From a virus: a DNA stretch of 64,000 nt. This document shows positions 16,915-59,815 of the stretch, piece by piece. The notes below the pieces were generated by a model that saw only the letters and a program-made list of their open reading frames with translations, did no database searches and was not told the DNA's origin. The stretch covers positions 1-64,000 of the IMG/VR virus record IMGVR_UViG_3300034279_001754, one strand, 5' to 3'. Within the stretch, counting starts at the first letter, position 1, and each line of letters opens with the position of its first letter. Made by a program: the position numbers and the translations under genes.

Positions 16915-18011
16915 GGCTGCACCCTCCGAAACCCAATAACCCACACCCAAGGATTCGCGTCCCATGACCCTTCACCATTTATGGATTCCCAGAGCCTGGC
17001 ATACACACTAGCCAAGCAATCGCCGGACAACATGCTACCGGATGAGCAACCCTCAGCTAAGGCATCCGCATCGCTAATTGCATTCAGTCGCTCCACCCGA
17101 ATATCAGTAACCTCCAACAAGATGCGGCTGGCCCAGCGGGGCATAAAGATAGATTGGCGGCAACGAAAGACACCTACACCGAAAGGACTTTTGAGATCGG
17201 CGCGATACAGCACTGGGGGCGCTTGCGACGGCCGGCCCCGGTGGTAGGTCCATTCGTCGCAGTGTCCGTCAGCCTGGCCCCATGTTTCTCGCACCCATAG
17301 TCGCTGCCTTACTCGGAATGGGCAATTGAGTACACGGACGACTGAGAGAGACCGAGAATCCGCGCTGCCGACCGTTGACTGCACAGCCCTTTCAACAGCG
17401 CCCATTTGAGATGCGCACGTTCCTCGTCCGTCAGCTTGGCGCTGTGATGCTTCTCGCCGAGCGCCACGCGACCATGGTCCCGCCTGTCCTGCCAGTTCTC
17501 CTCTTGGGTCCCCCAAGCAAGATTTGTTGGCACGTTGTTCTGTGGGTTCCCGTCGAGGTGGCGCACCTGATGGGTCTTGCTTGGCGCCTCCCCGTGGAAT
17601 GCCGAGCAGATCAGACGGTGGACACTCCGAGTCACCTTGACGTTGTTGTGACTCATTGAAATTGAGCGATATCCCTTTATTGTCACATGCCCAGACAACG
17701 GATACCAATCCACGCGTTCCTTTCTGCCAAAGCCTGCGTACTTTGTGCAGGAGTAGATCATCCCATCCGAACCTGCTCGGTAATCCTCGTTCGGCGATTC
17801 GGGGATCAATCGCAACTCTATGCCACTGGCCAGCATGATTAATTTCATAGATAGTCCTGCTATGGTCATCCTCTAGTTTATCGTCTCGGATGCGGCAGGG
17901 CAAACCCTTCACCACCCTCCGCGTCTGCGTTTTCCGGCCCTCAAGAATGGCGCGAACCATTTCGCCCTTGAATAGGATGGGCCTTTCTTTTGTTTTAATT
18001 TGGGTTGTCAT
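16911..18011 (-). CDS. phage 'morphogenetic' family protein split by a nested HNH gene
   Basis: N-terminus MTTQIKTKERPILFKGEMV followed by GRKTQTRRVV, and C-terminus with RLWVRETWG and DVRVERL-type segments. These match a widespread phage family often annotated 'morphogenetic protein', in which the GRKTQTRR and WVRETW motifs lie close together. Here they are separated by about 190 codons holding an HNH gene in another frame (17309-17869). The host frame happens to stay open through the insert, but translates there to Arg/Gly/Pro-rich nonsense. So the gene is interrupted, either by an intron that is spliced out or by a free-standing insertion. Confidence 0.7.
   Translation of the reverse strand: MTTQIKTKERPILFKGEMVRAILEGRKTQTRRVVKGLPCRIRDDKLEDDHSRTIYEINHAGQWHRVAIDPRIAERGLPSRFGWDDLLLHKVRRLWQKGTRGLVSVVWACDNKGISLNFNESQQRQGDSECPPSDLLGIPRGGAKQDPSGAPPRREPTEQRANKSCLGDPRGELAGQAGPWSRGARREASQRQADGRGTCASQMGAVERAVQSTVGSADSRSLSVVRVLNCPFRVRQRLWVRETWGQADGHCDEWTYHRGRPSQAPPVLYRADLKSPFGVGVFRCRQSIFMPRWASRILLEVTDIRVERLNAISDADALAEGCSSGSMLSGDCLASVYARLWESINGEGSWDANPWVWVIGFRRVQP
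17309..17869 (-). mobile_element. HNH homing-type endonuclease gene nested in the 16911-18011 gene
   Basis: 186 residues. A NUMOD4-like start (DYRAGSDGMIYS) is followed by an HNH region: VHRLICSAFHG, VRHLDGNPQNN and TNLAWGTQEEN. The last part (RSAARILGLSQSSVYSI) looks like a helix-turn-helix DNA-recognition module. The reading frame overlaps the host coding sequence at both ends: its stop codon lies within host codons for NCPFRV. A nearer start (MLASGIELRLI) is likely the true one. This arrangement is typical of selfish endonuclease genes. Base composition here is visibly GC-richer than the flanks. Confidence 0.85.
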
Positions 18012-18533: not shown

Positions 18534-19127
18534 TCATGCGTAGATATACTCACGCCATTCCTCAACTTCAGCCATGCTGATAGTCACTGTGATTTTATTG
18601 AAGGGGGCTTTAGGGTTCCCTGCCAAGGTGGTCCCACGGCTATTTACTCTGGCATCCATCATACCGACTTGAAAACTATCCCAAGTGAATGGCAATGGCG
18701 CAACATTCGTGGTTTCCTTAGCAAATACCTTCTTCAAGGCCATAGCCCATTCTTCTGGGGTACGATTATCCTTGCAATTGTTGCATTCCAGGCAGCTAGT
18801 AACGAGATTTTGCCAAGTATCTTGGCCACCTCGGGACTTTGGAATTACGTGGTCGATTGTAAGGTTTGGACCGGAATACCCACAATATTGGCAAACATGC
18901 CTATCTCTCTTCAGGATCAAGGAACGGGAGGGTTTCCCGGCAAAGAGTTTAGATTGGGGGACTTTGACATAGTGCTTTAGGCGGATAGTACGCTTGGACA
19001 CAACGTGCGCTTTATTTTTCAGCACCAAAATAGTCGCCCTCTTCCAACTCAACATCGTTAAAGGTTGGTAAGTAGCATTGAGTAATAAAATAGTCGAACC
19101 AACTTTGACAGGGATTTCTTTAGGCAT
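18534..19127 (-). CDS. HNH endonuclease
   Basis: 197 residues. LLLNATYQPLTMLSWKRAT near residue 15, then a CQYCGYSGP zinc-binding pair, LTIDHVIPKSRGG (HNH core) and CLECNNCKDN (second Cys pair). This is the single-HNH family common in cyanobacteria and their phages, normally about 165 to 200 residues. It may be free-standing selfish DNA or act in packaging or restriction. The neighbours do not settle which. Confidence 0.9.
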   Translation of the reverse strand: MPKEIPVKVGSTILLLNATYQPLTMLSWKRATILVLKNKAHVVSKRTIRLKHYVKVPQSKLFAGKPSRSLILKRDRHVCQYCGYSGPNLTIDHVIPKSRGGQDTWQNLVTSCLECNNCKDNRTPEEWAMALKKVFAKETTNVAPLPFTWDSFQVGMMDARVNSRGTTLAGNPKAPFNKITVTISMAEVEEWREYIYA

Positions 19128-19853: not shown

Positions 19854-22301
19854 TCAAGAAAGCAACCGACTGCGAATGTTCGGTAAACTGTTGGTATCTT
19901 CGCCGTAAATCACACTATTTAGAAATACGGTTTGGAGCGCACCTTGCTGTTCTTGCTCACGAGTCTGCTGTTGATAGAGGACAAAGTCATCTCCTTCTTT
20001 TTCAACACGGAGTAAACCCTTGGCCGACTTTTTGGTGCCACGGTCGGTAACCGGATCCTTCATGGTTTCAATAGGGACGCCATTAATTTGACCCCAAGTT
20101 GTTTTGTAGGCGATTCCAAAGGTGTCGCGAGTGTGATACTGGTATGTGTACGAACCGATCCCAAACACAATATTTTCGGATGCCCAACCTTGTTGTCTCA
20201 TGTGCTCCAAAATAGCTCTGGCACGGGGTAGAGTGATCGAGTCGCCGTAGATGAGACCGACACGGGGATTCAAAACCTTGAACCCTCTTTCATTTACAGT
20301 CCCACCGAAGACTTCCCACAGGAGTTGAAGGGAGCCCTTGAACTCACGGCTACCTGGCTCAGTGTCGTTGTCACCGCAAATGATTTTCTCAGGGTCGCCA
20401 CTATTCCCCGATACCAACGTGGCCCCATTTCTTCTAACTAAGACTCTACCGCTAGGAACTTGAACACAACCCACATAACCATCATAGTCCACTTCTTTCT
20501 TTTTGATGGATGATCCACCAAGTCTGTTATCTTTAAGGATGTGGAGAGTATGGACATCAGAGAATATTTCTTTCCTGTCATCCACAGTAACCGAGTGTTT
20601 GCATCCGTAACCTGCAAATAAAGATACCCTTTGAATAACTTTTACTACATCCCCATTAGTGGAATCAACCTTAAACCTGGAGTCAGATCTACGGGTGGCA
20701 TCCCAATACGAAACTTCTTCAATAAACTCCCTAGCCCAAGAAGATGAAACAACATCAGAGACCCAATTAAAGTCTTTCTGAAAATGACTTCCATTAGTTT
20801 TAACATTTATTTCCACCCTTTTGCTATGGTCGGGGTGCTTTGGATTGGGAGATAAAGAGTAAATTTTAAACTCTAAATTGCAATCCTCTAAAATTGAGAT
20901 AAGTCTGTCAATTTTTCTTTTTTTAGAGAAAGAGAATCTGATAGAGCTTTTAGACCCCGTCACATAAGAGCCATCTGCTTGAAAAGCAATTGCTAACCTT
21001 TCCATGGGAGTTAAGCTACCGTCACCTTGACCGCCGTATGGGACACTCCGTAAAAAATCTCTCCCCCAGTGGCCTACTTTAGAGTTAGAAGCTTCTTCAA
21101 TTTTTAGTCTTCCATTTTGCTTATAAACCATCCTATGATTAGGAGTGACCAATAGGTCTAATTTTCCCTTAAAGTCATGGAAATGAACCATTTTTCCACT
21201 ATACTTTTCGTAAACTAGCTTGGTAGGCTTTACAAAATTAAAAGTCTCATCGTCAGTTACTTGGGCTACAAGGGAATCTTCATTCAGCTCATTAAAGAAT
21301 TTCCACCCATCTGAAGTAAAAATTTGTGTGTCACTGTCATAGCAGTCCGGTCTGACGGTTACCTTGGCTAGTCCCAATTCATTAGGCTGACGGTTTAGGA
21401 TTTCATCTTTAAGGGCAGGGAGAATTACCGTCAGTGTATCCCAGTAATTCCAAGTGTCACTGACTACGCTAACAATCCCTTTTGGGTACACCTTCGTGAT
21501 GATCCGTCGAATAGTCTCCAATTCATTTTCCCGTCCCCCTAGGCAGGTAACACTATGCTCCGTAGCGGGGACACTACCCCCAATGAACTCGGAACCGCAA
21601 TCATAATAATCGTCAAGGTAATCAATCGAAAGGATAGTGTCAGTACCCTTAAAACTATACAAGTGCCCAATCTGGTGAGCTGCCGCATCATGAATGCCCC
21701 CTACTCCGCGAGCAGAGAAGTCGTGCCCCTGGATGTCAACGAACTGGGGACTACTACCTGTGAGTTCAGCATAGTGGTCAAACAAACGACGAAACTCATA
21801 GGCAATGGTAGCTACGTTAACCGCTTTCCAAATTTCCGAAGATTTAGCAGTTTCAATATAGTTAGTGGCCCATGGCGCCATCCACTTGAAATCTTTATGG
21901 GTGTTTTGTGCGGTCAGGAAGGGGACCCCGATGTTCACACGGCTACCTTCCGGGAGAGCTTTAATGTGAAGGGGTAGGTACCCAAGGTCGTGTAATTCCG
22001 CAAAGTGGTCAGTTCCCACTACACCTTCCCCTAGCGAAGAATCCATCCGCCGCTTATACTTATCTAGGACCTTAGCCTTAGGTTGGTGAAAGAAGGAGTC
22101 ATTCCAAAGATCCCTCAACATCCATTTCATGGTACCCTGGATATTAGCCACAACAACCTTATGGTCGAAGCTCTCAGGCATATTTGCTAGACGATCGGAC
22201 CTTGCCGTCATGTTGGCATAGATAATCTCGGTGCCTTCCGGGTTTTGAAAGGGGTGTCCGGTCTTGTAGAAGTCGGTTGCGTGGGGAGCGAAAAGTTTCA
22301 T
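19854..22301 (-). CDS. nicotinamide phosphoribosyltransferase with intein
   Basis: 815 codons. Exteins 1-319 and 634-815 join to a NAMPT (NadV-type) enzyme of 501 residues, the usual size. It makes NMN from nicotinamide and PRPP. Signatures include IQGHDFSARG near residue 190, GGSVPATEHS near 241, SVVSDTWNYWDTL near 278 and the RPDSGDP motif, which the intein splits between D319 and S634. Next to it is a PRPP-synthetase homologue (22371), so the two form an NMN-making pair or a NARP1-like pair that builds NAD+ from ADP-ribose-PP. The leader upstream of 22301 is a model CAAC-repeat leader with no Shine-Dalgarno. Confidence 0.92.
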   Translation of the reverse strand: MKLFAPHATDFYKTGHPFQNPEGTEIIYANMTARSDRLANMPESFDHKVVVANIQGTMKWMLRDLWNDSFFHQPKAKVLDKYKRRMDSSLGEGVVGTDHFAELHDLGYLPLHIKALPEGSRVNIGVPFLTAQNTHKDFKWMAPWATNYIETAKSSEIWKAVNVATIAYEFRRLFDHYAELTGSSPQFVDIQGHDFSARGVGGIHDAAAHQIGHLYSFKGTDTILSIDYLDDYYDCGSEFIGGSVPATEHSVTCLGGRENELETIRRIITKVYPKGIVSVVSDTWNYWDTLTVILPALKDEILNRQPNELGLAKVTVRPDCYDSDTQIFTSDGWKFFNELNEDSLVAQVTDDETFNFVKPTKLVYEKYSGKMVHFHDFKGKLDLLVTPNHRMVYKQNGRLKIEEASNSKVGHWGRDFLRSVPYGGQGDGSLTPMERLAIAFQADGSYVTGSKSSIRFSFSKKRKIDRLISILEDCNLEFKIYSLSPNPKHPDHSKRVEINVKTNGSHFQKDFNWVSDVVSSSWAREFIEEVSYWDATRRSDSRFKVDSTNGDVVKVIQRVSLFAGYGCKHSVTVDDRKEIFSDVHTLHILKDNRLGGSSIKKKEVDYDGYVGCVQVPSGRVLVRRNGATLVSGNSGDPEKIICGDNDTEPGSREFKGSLQLLWEVFGGTVNERGFKVLNPRVGLIYGDSITLPRARAILEHMRQQGWASENIVFGIGSYTYQYHTRDTFGIAYKTTWGQINGVPIETMKDPVTDRGTKKSAKGLLRVEKEGDDFVLYQQQTREQEQQGALQTVFLNSVIYGEDTNSLPNIRSRLLS
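20403..21344 (-). mobile_element. LAGLIDADG-type intein in the NAMPT gene
   Basis: 314 residues from Cys320 (CYDSDTQIFTSDGWKFF, splicing block A) to Asn633, with Ser as +1. Block B is LLVTPNHRMV; the C-terminal block reads YVGCVQVPSGRV and ends SGN/S, with Gly in place of the usual penultimate His. The middle holds LAIAFQADGSYV, a DOD endonuclease-like motif, then helices (KKRKIDRLISILEDC). It sits in the catalytic RPDSGDP motif, so splicing is needed for activity. Confidence 0.9.
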
Positions 22302-22370
22302 TGTTTGTTGGGATTTGGTTTGGTTGCGTTTGGTTGCGTTTGGCGGTAGTTGCGTCCGGGTTAATAAGGC

Positions 22371-23288
22371 CTAGTTCACCCTGAGACAAGTCAAGTTGGC
22401 GGGTAGTTCCCGATAAAAGTCTCGATTCGGCAACATGTTCGCCACATAGAAGTGATCGATAAGGCCATCAAAAACCTCAAAACCCTTCGAGAAGATTCCA
22501 TGAGTGACATACAAGTCGATGCGGGATGGCTCGTATTTTTTCAGAACCTTGGCAAGTTCAATAAAGGTCCGACCACCATCGCAAATATCGTCAACAATAA
22601 GAAGGTTCTTTCCTTTGTAATCACCGTCCTGGATTTCCGTTCGCAGGATTTCCCCATTTTCAGGGTTACGGACCTTAGTGGCATACTTGACTTCAGTAGA
22701 CCCTATAAACCTAGCAGCTACTTCTGCCCGTGGCACTGCGCCTTTATCAGGGGCAATGATTACGGTCGTGGGGTCCCACTCCATGCCTGAAGGTATCGAT
22801 TCAAACATACTCAAAAGGGAATCAACCCGCTCGCTATCAAAGTTGGTAAATTCCCCAAAGATGCTCTCAGCTACGGGGCTATGAACATCCCATGTTACCA
22901 AGCAGTCGCCCTTGCCCAAATACGGCCTGAGGGAATTAGCAAACACAGACAAGGAAAAAGCTTCGCCTTCAGCACAAACTCTATCCTGGCGGCTATAGGG
23001 CAAGTAGGGGATAAAAAGTTCCAACCCCCAGGGCTTATTGAGGCCACTTCTTGCCCTTTTAATCGCATCCAAAATAAGCAAAAGTTTCACCCATTCTTCG
23101 CCTTTGCCGTCGATGTCAGCAGTGACGAAGATTTCGGAGTATTCAGGACTATCAAGGTTAACTCCGTCTAAGATTCTAACTTGATGCTCTCCAGCCGAGA
23201 AAGTGAAGGTTGAGTAATTGATCTCTGCAGGAGGTTTCCCCTCGATTAGATCCCTCGTTAGATTGGTTGCAGTTATGTTGATTGTCAT
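22371..23288 (-). CDS. ribose-phosphate pyrophosphokinase homologue
   Basis: 305 residues. FIPYLPYSRQDR near residue 91, TWDVHSPV near 133, the IIAPDKGAVPRA segment and the PRPP loop VDDICDGGRTF near 223 are all Prs hallmarks. Normally it makes PRPP from ribose-5-phosphate and ATP, which feeds the neighbouring NAMPT. In the phage NARP1 system a Prs relative instead pyrophosphorylates ADP-ribose; which activity this has cannot be read from sequence. The promoter is at 23340-23368. It terminates with TAG. Confidence 0.9.
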   Translation of the reverse strand: MTINITATNLTRDLIEGKPPAEINYSTFTFSAGEHQVRILDGVNLDSPEYSEIFVTADIDGKGEEWVKLLLILDAIKRARSGLNKPWGLELFIPYLPYSRQDRVCAEGEAFSLSVFANSLRPYLGKGDCLVTWDVHSPVAESIFGEFTNFDSERVDSLLSMFESIPSGMEWDPTTVIIAPDKGAVPRAEVAARFIGSTEVKYATKVRNPENGEILRTEIQDGDYKGKNLLIVDDICDGGRTFIELAKVLKKYEPSRIDLYVTHGIFSKGFEVFDGLIDHFYVANMLPNRDFYRELPANLTCLRVN

Positions 23289-23339: not shown

Positions 23340-23368
23340 ACTATAGCGTTTTTGCCCTACAGAAACAA
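23340..23368 (-). promoter_or_regulatory. promoter of the NAD module
   Basis: -35 TTGTTT, 17-base spacer ending GC, -10 TATAGT. The spacer has a decayed form of the TTTCTGC/GCAGAAA palindrome. It drives the Prs and NAMPT genes, with a leader of about 45 bases. Confidence 0.6.
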
Positions 23369-23474: not shown

Positions 23475-24329
23475 TCAGAACTTAAAGCCGAGGCCGACAG
23501 TACCAACTGGGGCGTAAGCCGTTCCAGCAACACCGTTTTCCTGGGTGGGGAACTTCAGATCGGCGAAACCAACTAGGGACGATGTAAAGGAACGCTCCAC
23601 ACCGGCAACGAATACAAACTGGGAACCTTGACCAATGCTGGTCTGGTAGTTGGCTTCCCCATCGTTCGTCAAAGCCCATTGGCCACCGGCACCGAGATAA
23701 AGGTTTGTGCTGCTAACGTAGGTGCCGCCGATGGTACGACCAGCCAGGGAAACGTCTACGGTCCCCAGAACACCGAGAGCAGAACCAATTTGGCTATCAG
23801 GGCCCGCAGCGAAGTTCACATAGGGGCGAGCTGAGATGGTAGTACCGTAGACTTCAGCCACTGGGAAACGTCCCTGAAGGGTACCACCAGCGATAGTACG
23901 ATTGTTGCTATAGGTATCGCTGCTAACGCCTTGACGATTCAGGTTGATACCTGCACCAACATAACTGCTGACTCCAACTGCTTTACGGGTTGCCGTATCC
24001 TCAAGGGCAGAAACACGGGCGTTGGTAACTGCGATAGCCGCACGAGCCTCGTCTGCAATGCGACGATCGGCTTGGCTCAAGGTGTCATAAACCCTGTCAA
24101 TGCAAGCACTCATAAGAGCTACGCTTTCGTAGCGGGCGGTGGGATTGCTACCACGGAAAGTGCCATCGGGATACCCCACGGCACAACCATACTTTTCAGA
24201 GAGATTCTGAAGTGCGCCGTAGGCCCAATTTGTCGGAGAAGAGTCCGTAAACCGTGGTGCGGCGAGCGCAGGAGTGGTAAAGGAAGCGATGGCTACTGAG
24301 GCAGCGATAATTCGATTTTTCATTTTCAT
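23475..24329 (-). CDS. SLH-domain outer-membrane porin-like protein
   Basis: 284 residues from MKMKNRIIAASVAIASF, with a Sec signal peptide ending TPALA/AP. Next comes an SLH domain (FTDSSPTNWAYGALQNL, then VGYPDGTFRG and ARYE). A coiled-coil linker follows (RRIADEARAAIAVTNARVSAL), and then a Gly/Thr/Tyr-rich beta-barrel ending in GLGFKF, an aromatic terminal residue as in outer-membrane proteins. This layout is that of cyanobacterial SLH porins (SomA/iron-uptake type), though it is shorter than the usual 500 or so residues. A host envelope gene on a phage is very unusual. It may remodel the surface or block superinfection. Confidence 0.85.
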   Translation of the reverse strand: MKMKNRIIAASVAIASFTTPALAAPRFTDSSPTNWAYGALQNLSEKYGCAVGYPDGTFRGSNPTARYESVALMSACIDRVYDTLSQADRRIADEARAAIAVTNARVSALEDTATRKAVGVSSYVGAGINLNRQGVSSDTYSNNRTIAGGTLQGRFPVAEVYGTTISARPYVNFAAGPDSQIGSALGVLGTVDVSLAGRTIGGTYVSSTNLYLGAGGQWALTNDGEANYQTSIGQGSQFVFVAGVERSFTSSLVGFADLKFPTQENGVAGTAYAPVGTVGLGFKF

Positions 24330-24584
24330 TTTGTTTGTGTTTTGTCTGTACAGATCCGGGTTACAAATCCCGGAATGTGATTGTGGGGTTATGAACCCCG
24401 GTGCAAATAGCACTTTGCCCTCTCAGGGTTACAATCACCTTGCTATTGGGACGATTATTTTCTAGGCTCATTGCCAATTTGAAAAATTTCTAACCATGTC
24501 ATACTGTCAGAAAGATAACAACACAGTCGAAAATAAACAGCTTTTCATCGGGAGTGAAATTCATTCTAGTTTATATTGTTGAAC

Positions 24585-58718: not shown

Positions 58719-59492
58719 CTAAGCAACAAAATCCCCTAGCTGAATCCTGCCCTCCGGCACCCATTCTTTGACAATAGCCCTAATTATGGGCTTAGTTGGC
58801 CTATACTGGAAGGGAATATCCGACATGTCCAAACTCTCGGGTCCAACTAAAACCCGTTGACGCTTAATGTAGGTCCCATGGGTGAATGCCCTAGGGAGTT
58901 CTTCCCAAGGTTTCCCTATTTGCTTCAACAAGGTCTTCATTTCCTCGCAAGTTACCCCTTGGAGCGACTTATGGGAAAATAGACTCTGAGCGTACATTGA
59001 CACTGAGTTTTTTGTAGCATCGTTAAGTCTCCATAGGAAGTTCTTGTAAACATATTCTAAATTAGGAACGTTCCATACCCTGCAGTCAAATACGGGGTAC
59101 TGGCCGGACTTCTCAGGGAGGTACTTGGGTAAATTTCCTGTAAAAAATGAGCTTGCCATAGATGCCAGTATTGAAGTCAGCTTTTGATATTTCCCCCTAA
59201 ATAGGAAGTCTCGATTGGAGTAATTTCGCTTGTCAAGGTGCCAATACAAAGTTATCTCATCTGATTGGCAATACCCGAGCAAAGCTTCACTTTCGGTAAC
59301 AAGGTGCCTGGTGGTAGCAACCATTAGGTTAACGAATCGCTCATCAAACGGCTTTTGGAGGCCATGGGTAAACGAGCTAAAGGCCCTTCCATCGATGCGG
59401 CACATTAAAGGGCGGAAAGGATTTGCGGTCCTGCCTGCCTCTTTTTGCTCTTGTTCTTTTAGGATGTCGCCTAGGGTGTCAGTGTGTGGCAT
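58719..59492 (-). CDS. Thg1-like 3'-5' RNA polymerase (tRNA-His guanylyltransferase family)
   Basis: 257 residues from MPHTDTLGDILKEQEQ. MCRIDGRAFSSFT near residue 30 holds the first metal-binding Asp (RxDGRxF). GYCQSDEITLYW near residue 75 holds the SDE motif. SSFFTGNLP and PVFDCRVWNVPN are also family blocks. Thg1 adds G-1 to tRNA-His; Thg1-like proteins repair 5'-truncated tRNAs with template pairing. It lies directly upstream of the tRNA cluster, where some tRNAs have mismatched or missing 5' strands. No tRNA-His was found in the window. Confidence 0.9.
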   Translation of the reverse strand: MPHTDTLGDILKEQEQKEAGRTANPFRPLMCRIDGRAFSSFTHGLQKPFDERFVNLMVATTRHLVTESEALLGYCQSDEITLYWHLDKRNYSNRDFLFRGKYQKLTSILASMASSFFTGNLPKYLPEKSGQYPVFDCRVWNVPNLEYVYKNFLWRLNDATKNSVSMYAQSLFSHKSLQGVTCEEMKTLLKQIGKPWEELPRAFTHGTYIKRQRVLVGPESLDMSDIPFQYRPTKPIIRAIVKEWVPEGRIQLGDFVA

Positions 59493-59524
59493 CTTGATGT
59501 GGTTGTTTGGGGTTTTACCTGTAG

Positions 59525-59815
59525 TTAGTCCCATTTTATTTCAATGGATTGAATACAGTCGGTATCATGAATCTTAATCTTCTCGGAAGATACAGAGTAA
59601 CCGTTTTGAGTCAGTTCTTCCATCAAGGGTTGAAAAATATGAACTGTCTGCCAAGCAGGGGGCAGGTTACAATCTGAAATGTATCTCAGACTAGTCCGCC
59701 CTTCCTTGCTAGCATCATTAATTGCCCTGTAAATGTCTTTTTTAGCGTATACGGCAATTACTTCTCGGCGAGACTCCGATTGTTCCCGGGCTTGCCCTGC
59801 GGTGATTTTTTCCAT
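59525..59815 (-). CDS. hypothetical protein
   Basis: 96 residues (MEKITAGQAREQSESRREVI). TAGQAREQSE at the start and IHDTDCIQSIEIKWD at the end are typical of a phage family of unknown role. It ends 33 bases before the Thg1 ATG. Confidence 0.7.
   Translation of the reverse strand: MEKITAGQAREQSESRREVIAVYAKKDIYRAINDASKEGRTSLRYISDCNLPPAWQTVHIFQPLMEELTQNGYSVSSEKIKIHDTDCIQSIEIKWD

Follow-up and report, generated by a model that had tools for sequence, protein, structure and literature searches.

Two neighbouring genes on the minus strand of a large viral genome probably form a NARP1-type NAD+ reconstitution module, in which the predicted Namat contains an in-frame intein and its active site would be assembled after splicing. 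The first enzyme of the pair, Adps, would move pyrophosphate from ATP onto C1 of ADP-ribose (ADPR) to give ADPR-PP, which the second, Namat, would couple with nicotinamide to form NAD+. This two-step route would refill the NAD+ that host NADase defences split into nicotinamide and ADPR. NARP1 enzymes have been reconstituted from SpbetaL1 (PMC12774641) and from mycobacteriophage DyoEdafos (PMC13232231). The NARP1 type itself is already known; new here is a member with an intein-interrupted Namat, from what is probably a large cyanophage. The pair lies in a 134-kb virus record (IMGVR_UViG_3300034279_001754), the first 64,000 nucleotides of which form the stretch analysed here (the window).

Organization of the gene pair

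The original prediction had placed NAMPT and PRPP-synthetase homologues side by side at this locus, and this was borne out by two open reading frames (ORFs) lying exactly where it had put them. The Nampt-like ORF matches the NAPRTase/nicotinamide phosphoribosyl transferase family in Pfam (7.5e-30) and PHROG 448 (7.6e-172), whilst the Prs-like ORF is recognized as a ribose-phosphate pyrophosphokinase by PHROG 619 (2.5e-65) and, above its cut-off, by TIGR01251 of NCBIfam. The genes are ordered adps then namat, with the adps-like ORF directly upstream on the same strand and a gap of 69 bp between them. The main features of the locus are as follows:

22371-23288, minus strand: Adps-like protein of 305 aa, homologous to Prs and encoded by the first gene of the pair
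19854-22301, minus strand: Namat-like precursor ORF, 815 aa (N-extein 319, intein 314, C-extein 182), with a predicted spliced product of 501 aa
23450-23466, minus strand: terminator-like hairpin (consensus match only), upstream of adps

Both proteins are under purifying selection, since dN/dS against relatives is 0.05-0.07 for the Namat exteins and 0.13-0.31 for Adps. A strong promoter had also been claimed at position 23340, but the promoter scan gave no site there; around the pair, this sigma-70-like scan returned 5 promoter-like sites against 5.2 expected from shuffled sequence, with none in the intergenic gap. By eye only, a TTGTTT-N17-TATAGT element agreeing with 8 of 12 consensus positions can be seen near the claimed promoter. 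Transcription of adps and namat as a single transcript is plausible, because the hairpin isolates the pair from the neighbouring SLH-porin gene and no promoter-like site separates the two genes.

The adenine selectivity clamp

The Namat structure was solved with NAD+ by Lan et al. 2026, who described an adenine clamp, formed by Arg40 of a loop together with Phe392 and Tyr396 of a helix (within GSxTxQxNTRD), that is required for ADPR-PP-driven NAD+ synthesis and dispensable for PRPP chemistry (PMC12774641). Its definition combines the motif GS-aromatic-[T/S]-x-[Q/N]-aromatic-x-TRD with a residue of the beta1-beta2 loop that stacks (PMC12774641). Here, the helix motif was scored as GSx[TS]x[QN]x[NV]TRD, requiring aromatic residues at its third and seventh positions, and Arg, Lys or Tyr was accepted as the loop stacking residue. 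The relevant elements of the window protein are:

22161-22208, minus strand: clamp loop TARSDRLANMPESFDH, in which the Arg at 22191-22193 aligns with Arg40 of SpbetaL1 Namat
20124-20156, minus strand: clamp helix motif GSYTYQYHTRD, with Tyr/Tyr aligned to the Phe392/Tyr396 positions of SpbetaL1 Namat
21555-21557, minus strand: catalytic His of PATEHSV, invariant in alignments

Equivalents of R40, Y392, Y396, T398, R399 and D400 are all present and the clamp is thus complete, the final variable residue of the helix motif being His instead of Asn or Val. The window protein therefore does not have the open, clamp-free Nampt-type pocket by which NMN salvage would be recognized. Among 78 scored IMG/VR relatives, gathered without the clamp in the search pattern, 72 have an aromatic residue (Phe/Tyr/His) at each of the two helix positions, and the protein of Mycobacterium phage Aegeus (L016) also has the clamp. 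It is absent from all five Nampt-type controls, namely two T4-like Nampts, the Acidovorax ACP17 Nampt, the Xcc Nampt and Haemophilus ducreyi NadV (HdNadV).

Relationship to Namat and Nampt enzymes

The spliced window protein keeps a Nampt-like catalytic core (F189, R192, D215, R306, D308 and the catalytic His, which we take to be the phosphorylated His of the Nampt family). In phmmer comparisons it matched SpbetaL1 Namat at 1e-122, as against 1.7e-47 for human Nampt. A structure-based comparison had been proposed in the original prediction as a check. An AF2 model (pLDDT 91) was built of the intein-free relative L003, which shares 97% identity with the window protein after splicing. The model proved closest to solved Namat, which occupied Foldseek ranks 1-7 (TM 0.92/0.95), followed by HdNadV and then human NAMPT.

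A maximum-likelihood tree separates the T4-like, Xcc and ACP17 Nampts from the Adps-linked proteins by a 100/100 branch, with the window protein among the latter. HdNadV (9ke8, 9keo), the closest solved non-Namat relative, falls in the same broad clade and is 45% identical to the window Namat, despite an NMN-bound structure and clamp positions that read E/Q/R rather than R/Y/Y. Clade membership alone is therefore no proof and it is the clamp that carries the argument. The T4-like and ACP17 Nampts share the fold and catalytic core of the window Namat, but have GGGLLQ or GGALLQ in place of the clamp and no Adps neighbour; the ACP17 gene instead adjoins an NMNAT-NUDIX gene. By comparison, an Adps-like gene lies near 77 of 80 IMG/VR relatives of the window Namat, directly upstream in 76, and the three relatives without one sit at contig edges.

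The window pair resembles NARP1 of the SpbetaL1 prophage in its adps-namat order, its catalytic residues, both parts of the clamp (the loop Arg and the helix motif) and its predicted fold, and the two Namats are 46% identical. It differs in that the window Namat is interrupted by an intein, the virus is probably cyanobacterial and the Adps proteins are only distantly comparable.

The Adps-like protein

Relatives of the window Adps are present in 1459 phage records. Its AF2 model (pLDDT 86) has a PRPP-synthetase fold, and the best PDB matches are PRPP synthetases at 20-26% identity. Alignments locate the equivalent of the ribose-5-phosphate loop:

22563-22592, minus strand: DDICDGGRTF, corresponding to DDMIDTGGT in E. 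coli and mycobacterial Prs

The loop has G instead of T after DDxxD, and this alteration is a candidate Adps determinant. The DGGRT loop varies among Adps partners, reading SYGGT in Clo6 and AG20. Counts of DDICDGG in IMG/VR Adps loci were excluded as evidence because the motif was itself a search pattern.

NAD+ reconstitution or NMN salvage

Namat can also form NMN from PRPP in vitro, retaining roughly 50% of the activity that human Nampt shows in this reaction (PMC12774641). This activity favours a dual-use enzyme that would make NAD+ from ADPR-PP when NADases attack and otherwise NMN from PRPP, both of which would be relevant in cyanobacterial hosts. We consider such dual use possible, if somewhat unlikely; it overlaps with the NARP1 reading and the two are not mutually exclusive.

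Ordinary NMN salvage, in which Prs would supply PRPP, Nampt would form NMN from nicotinamide and the host NMNAT would complete NAD+, so that the pair would support phage replication and play no part in defence, is improbable. It accords with the family names in public annotation and with the residual PRPP-dependent activity just described. A further point in its favour is a clamp-bearing Acinetobacter homologue (58% identical) that adjoins both an Adps-like gene and a gene for a bifunctional NMNAT/ADPR pyrophosphatase, a neighbourhood suggesting that, in some cases, pairs with the clamp may function in general NAD salvage. Against this stand the full adenine clamp, superfluous for PRPP chemistry (PMC12774641), and the ribose-phosphate loop, in which the window Prs departs from its cellular counterparts. 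In addition, searches of the 134-kb record for NMNAT and NUDIX genes gave no match, although the record may be a fragment and the host has its own NMNAT. PF02026, the RyR-type cADPR hydrolase partner found in DyoEdafos, had no match in seven records, but the control was also without a match, which makes this negative uninformative.

The NARP1-type reading is better supported than plain NMN salvage, because the clamp is complete, the model is Namat-like and adps lies upstream in 76 of 80 relatives. The proposal of a NARP1-like pair over NMN salvage thus gains computational support from the clamp, the tree, the best-matching solved structure and the gene order.

An intein in the catalytic motif of Namat

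The Nampt-like ORF is some 310 residues overlong owing to a 314-aa intein, a feature missing from the original prediction for positions 19854-23288. The precursor is divided as follows:

21345-22301, minus strand: N-extein, ending in catalytic ...VRPD (aligned to intein-free L003-L008)
20403-21344, minus strand: LAGLIDADG intein, residues 320-633, with Cys1 ... Gly-Asn and a +1 Ser
19854-20402, minus strand: C-extein, beginning SGDPEKIICGD (aligned to intein-free relatives)

Alignment with viral-contig relatives places the insertion exactly between VRPD and SGDP, splitting the catalytic RPD|SGDP motif; the same site is empty in L003-L008. The intein blocks occur in the order CYDSDTQIFTSDGW, TPNH, LAIAFQADGSY (LAGLIDADG-type), VSYWD, CVQVPSGR and SGN|S. 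The hallmarks of an intein are present, including an in-frame insertion, intein-free homologues, C1, TPNH as the TxxH block, N314 and the +1 Ser, whilst the penultimate residue is Gly in place of the usual His (GN|S versus HN|S). PHROG ribonucleotide-reductase and PhoH families match the intein because members of those families carry related inteins; searched alone against Pfam and NCBIfam, it gave no match. Its identification draws on these PHROG matches, on a homologue for which a Hint domain has been described and on the relatives in which the site is empty.

As the intein interrupts the catalytic motif, mature Namat requires protein splicing, a step that we infer from the sequence, and the active site is predicted to be assembled only afterwards. 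Our preferred interpretation is that the intein is a homing parasite that exploits a conserved run of active-site codons and has no part in NAD chemistry. Its GC content is 38.7%, against 48.6% for the exteins. Compared with the nearest empty allele, L003, a single mismatch in the ~350 nt upstream of the site gives way to 8 within 16 nt at the site itself, a pattern that may reflect gene conversion plus an altered homing site.

Related inteins in other phages

Staphylococcus phage vB_Sau_Clo6, whose host belongs to another phylum than the probable host of the window virus, carries an intein homologous to that of the window (49.7% identity) and inserted at exactly the same RPD|SGDP site, as do its kin. 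The Clo6 nicotinamide phosphoribosyl transferase and its Hint insertion were published in 2017, before NARP1 and with no link to anti-defence (PMC5526547). This protein is a Namat, as it bears the clamp and adjoins an Adps-like gene. Namat of Citrobacter phage Tr1, a Gram-negative enterobacterial phage in which the protein is annotated just as a nicotinamide phosphoribosyltransferase, also has an intein at RPD|SGDP (47% identical to that of the window), with adps upstream. In Staphylococcus phage Stab23, a related intein occupies a second site, IPA|TEHS, beside the catalytic His.

These inteins bear on whether the window allele is a parasite-damaged one, with a non-splicing intein and an inactive Namat. 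The insertion between the catalytic Asp and the next Ser-Gly, and the GN|S junction, could point that way. Nevertheless, such damage is very improbable, given that all splicing blocks are kept in an unbroken frame, extein dN/dS is low, a second assembly (L002) has an identical intein and homologues that likewise end in GN|S are maintained in the Staphylococcus and Citrobacter phages. It is likewise highly unlikely that the intein is retained as a switch, whereby Cys1-dependent and possibly slow splicing at the non-canonical GN|S junction would gate activation of the anti-defence enzyme, with the redox or NAD state during the collapse of host NAD as a possible trigger; were this true, inteins at two Namat catalytic motifs (RPD|SGDP and IPA|TEHS) would represent regulated deployment, beyond parasitism alone.

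Host and significance

The host of this large virus is probably a cyanobacterium, on three indirect lines of evidence: the tRNA genes of the record are ~90% identical to those of Synechococcus phages S-CBWM1 and S-CREM1, the SLH-domain porin-like gene upstream of the pair has its sole relative in the genome collection in Leptolyngbya, and psbA occurs on the 277-kb contig of the relative L007. No psbA was found in the 134-kb record itself. Near DNA matches to named phages were absent over 15-40 kb and comprised just the tRNAs over 40-64 kb.

A literature search found no paper naming both NARP1 and cyanophage. The pair described here would extend NARP1 and its specificity clamp to large, probably cyanobacterium-infecting viruses, for which there has been little work on NAD-depleting defence or on the repair of NAD by viruses. 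An anti-defence enzyme also emerges as a recurrent home of active-site inteins in unrelated phages, and splicing as a limit on the speed of phage NAD repair is now directly testable.

Intein sites in the namat and ribonucleotide reductase genes

Alignment of the window namat gene (19854-22301) with its empty, intein-free allele from the viral relative L003 (L003:4001-5500) revealed near-identity around the intein site, together with eight mismatches within 16 nt that lie precisely at the point of insertion. In L003, this mismatched 16-nt stretch makes a near-palindrome, CTCGGGATCCCCCGAG. A related intein sits at a second site, IPA|TEHSV, in the Namat gene of Staphylococcus phage Stab23 (L202:2784-5222), immediately N-terminal of the catalytic histidine.

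The ribonucleotide reductase large-subunit gene of the whole virus record (G000), located beyond the window at record positions 81231-83804 (L027:17231-19804), is also intein-bearing, and the virus therefore possesses at least two inteins. This second element is a mini-intein of roughly 200 aa (SNL|CFTADTLVAV...GVLVHN|CSEIFL), matched by TIGR01445 (intein N-terminal) in a family profile search.

Namat variants and a neighbourhood of bacterial appearance

In two relatives (L082:2501-4372 and L078), Namat carries a C-terminal extension, MazG nucleotide pyrophosphohydrolase-like by eye, within a 623-aa ORF. A further record, L203 (CAKLQF020000015.1, 'Acinetobacter phage MD-2021a'), is filed as a phage and has the appearance of a bacterial chromosome. 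It encodes, in a row, a prs-like gene, a Namat-like gene (58% identical) bearing the adenine selectivity clamp, and a bifunctional NMNAT/ADPR pyrophosphatase, a gene order that possibly represents a chromosomal NARP1/NAD salvage operon.

Other genes and translation starts

Other genes of the virus record:
17309-17869, minus strand, HNH endonuclease, shortly downstream of namat
18534-19127, minus strand, HNH endonuclease, likewise
23475-24413, minus strand, phage-encoded SLH-domain, cyanobacterial porin-like outer-membrane protein, adjoining the NAD pair
58719-59534, minus strand, Thg1-like tRNAHis guanylyltransferase (match 1.7e-28)
G000 105196-106806 (L029:1196-2806), transposase-like protein (PHROG 506, 8.4e-49)

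The N-terminus of the porin-like protein resembles a signal peptide, a cluster of >20 tRNA genes adjoins the Thg1-like gene, and the transposase-like gene is found inside a virus record.

Many genes, about half of the 24 ORFs checked, lack a Shine-Dalgarno sequence and have instead a G-poor, CA-rich leader, e.g. CAAACGCAACCAAACGCAACCAAACCAAATCCCAACAAACA-ATG. Such leaders precede the ATGs at 22301, 23288, 31033, 2658, 7370, 48115 and others and may constitute an unusual translation-initiation signal.
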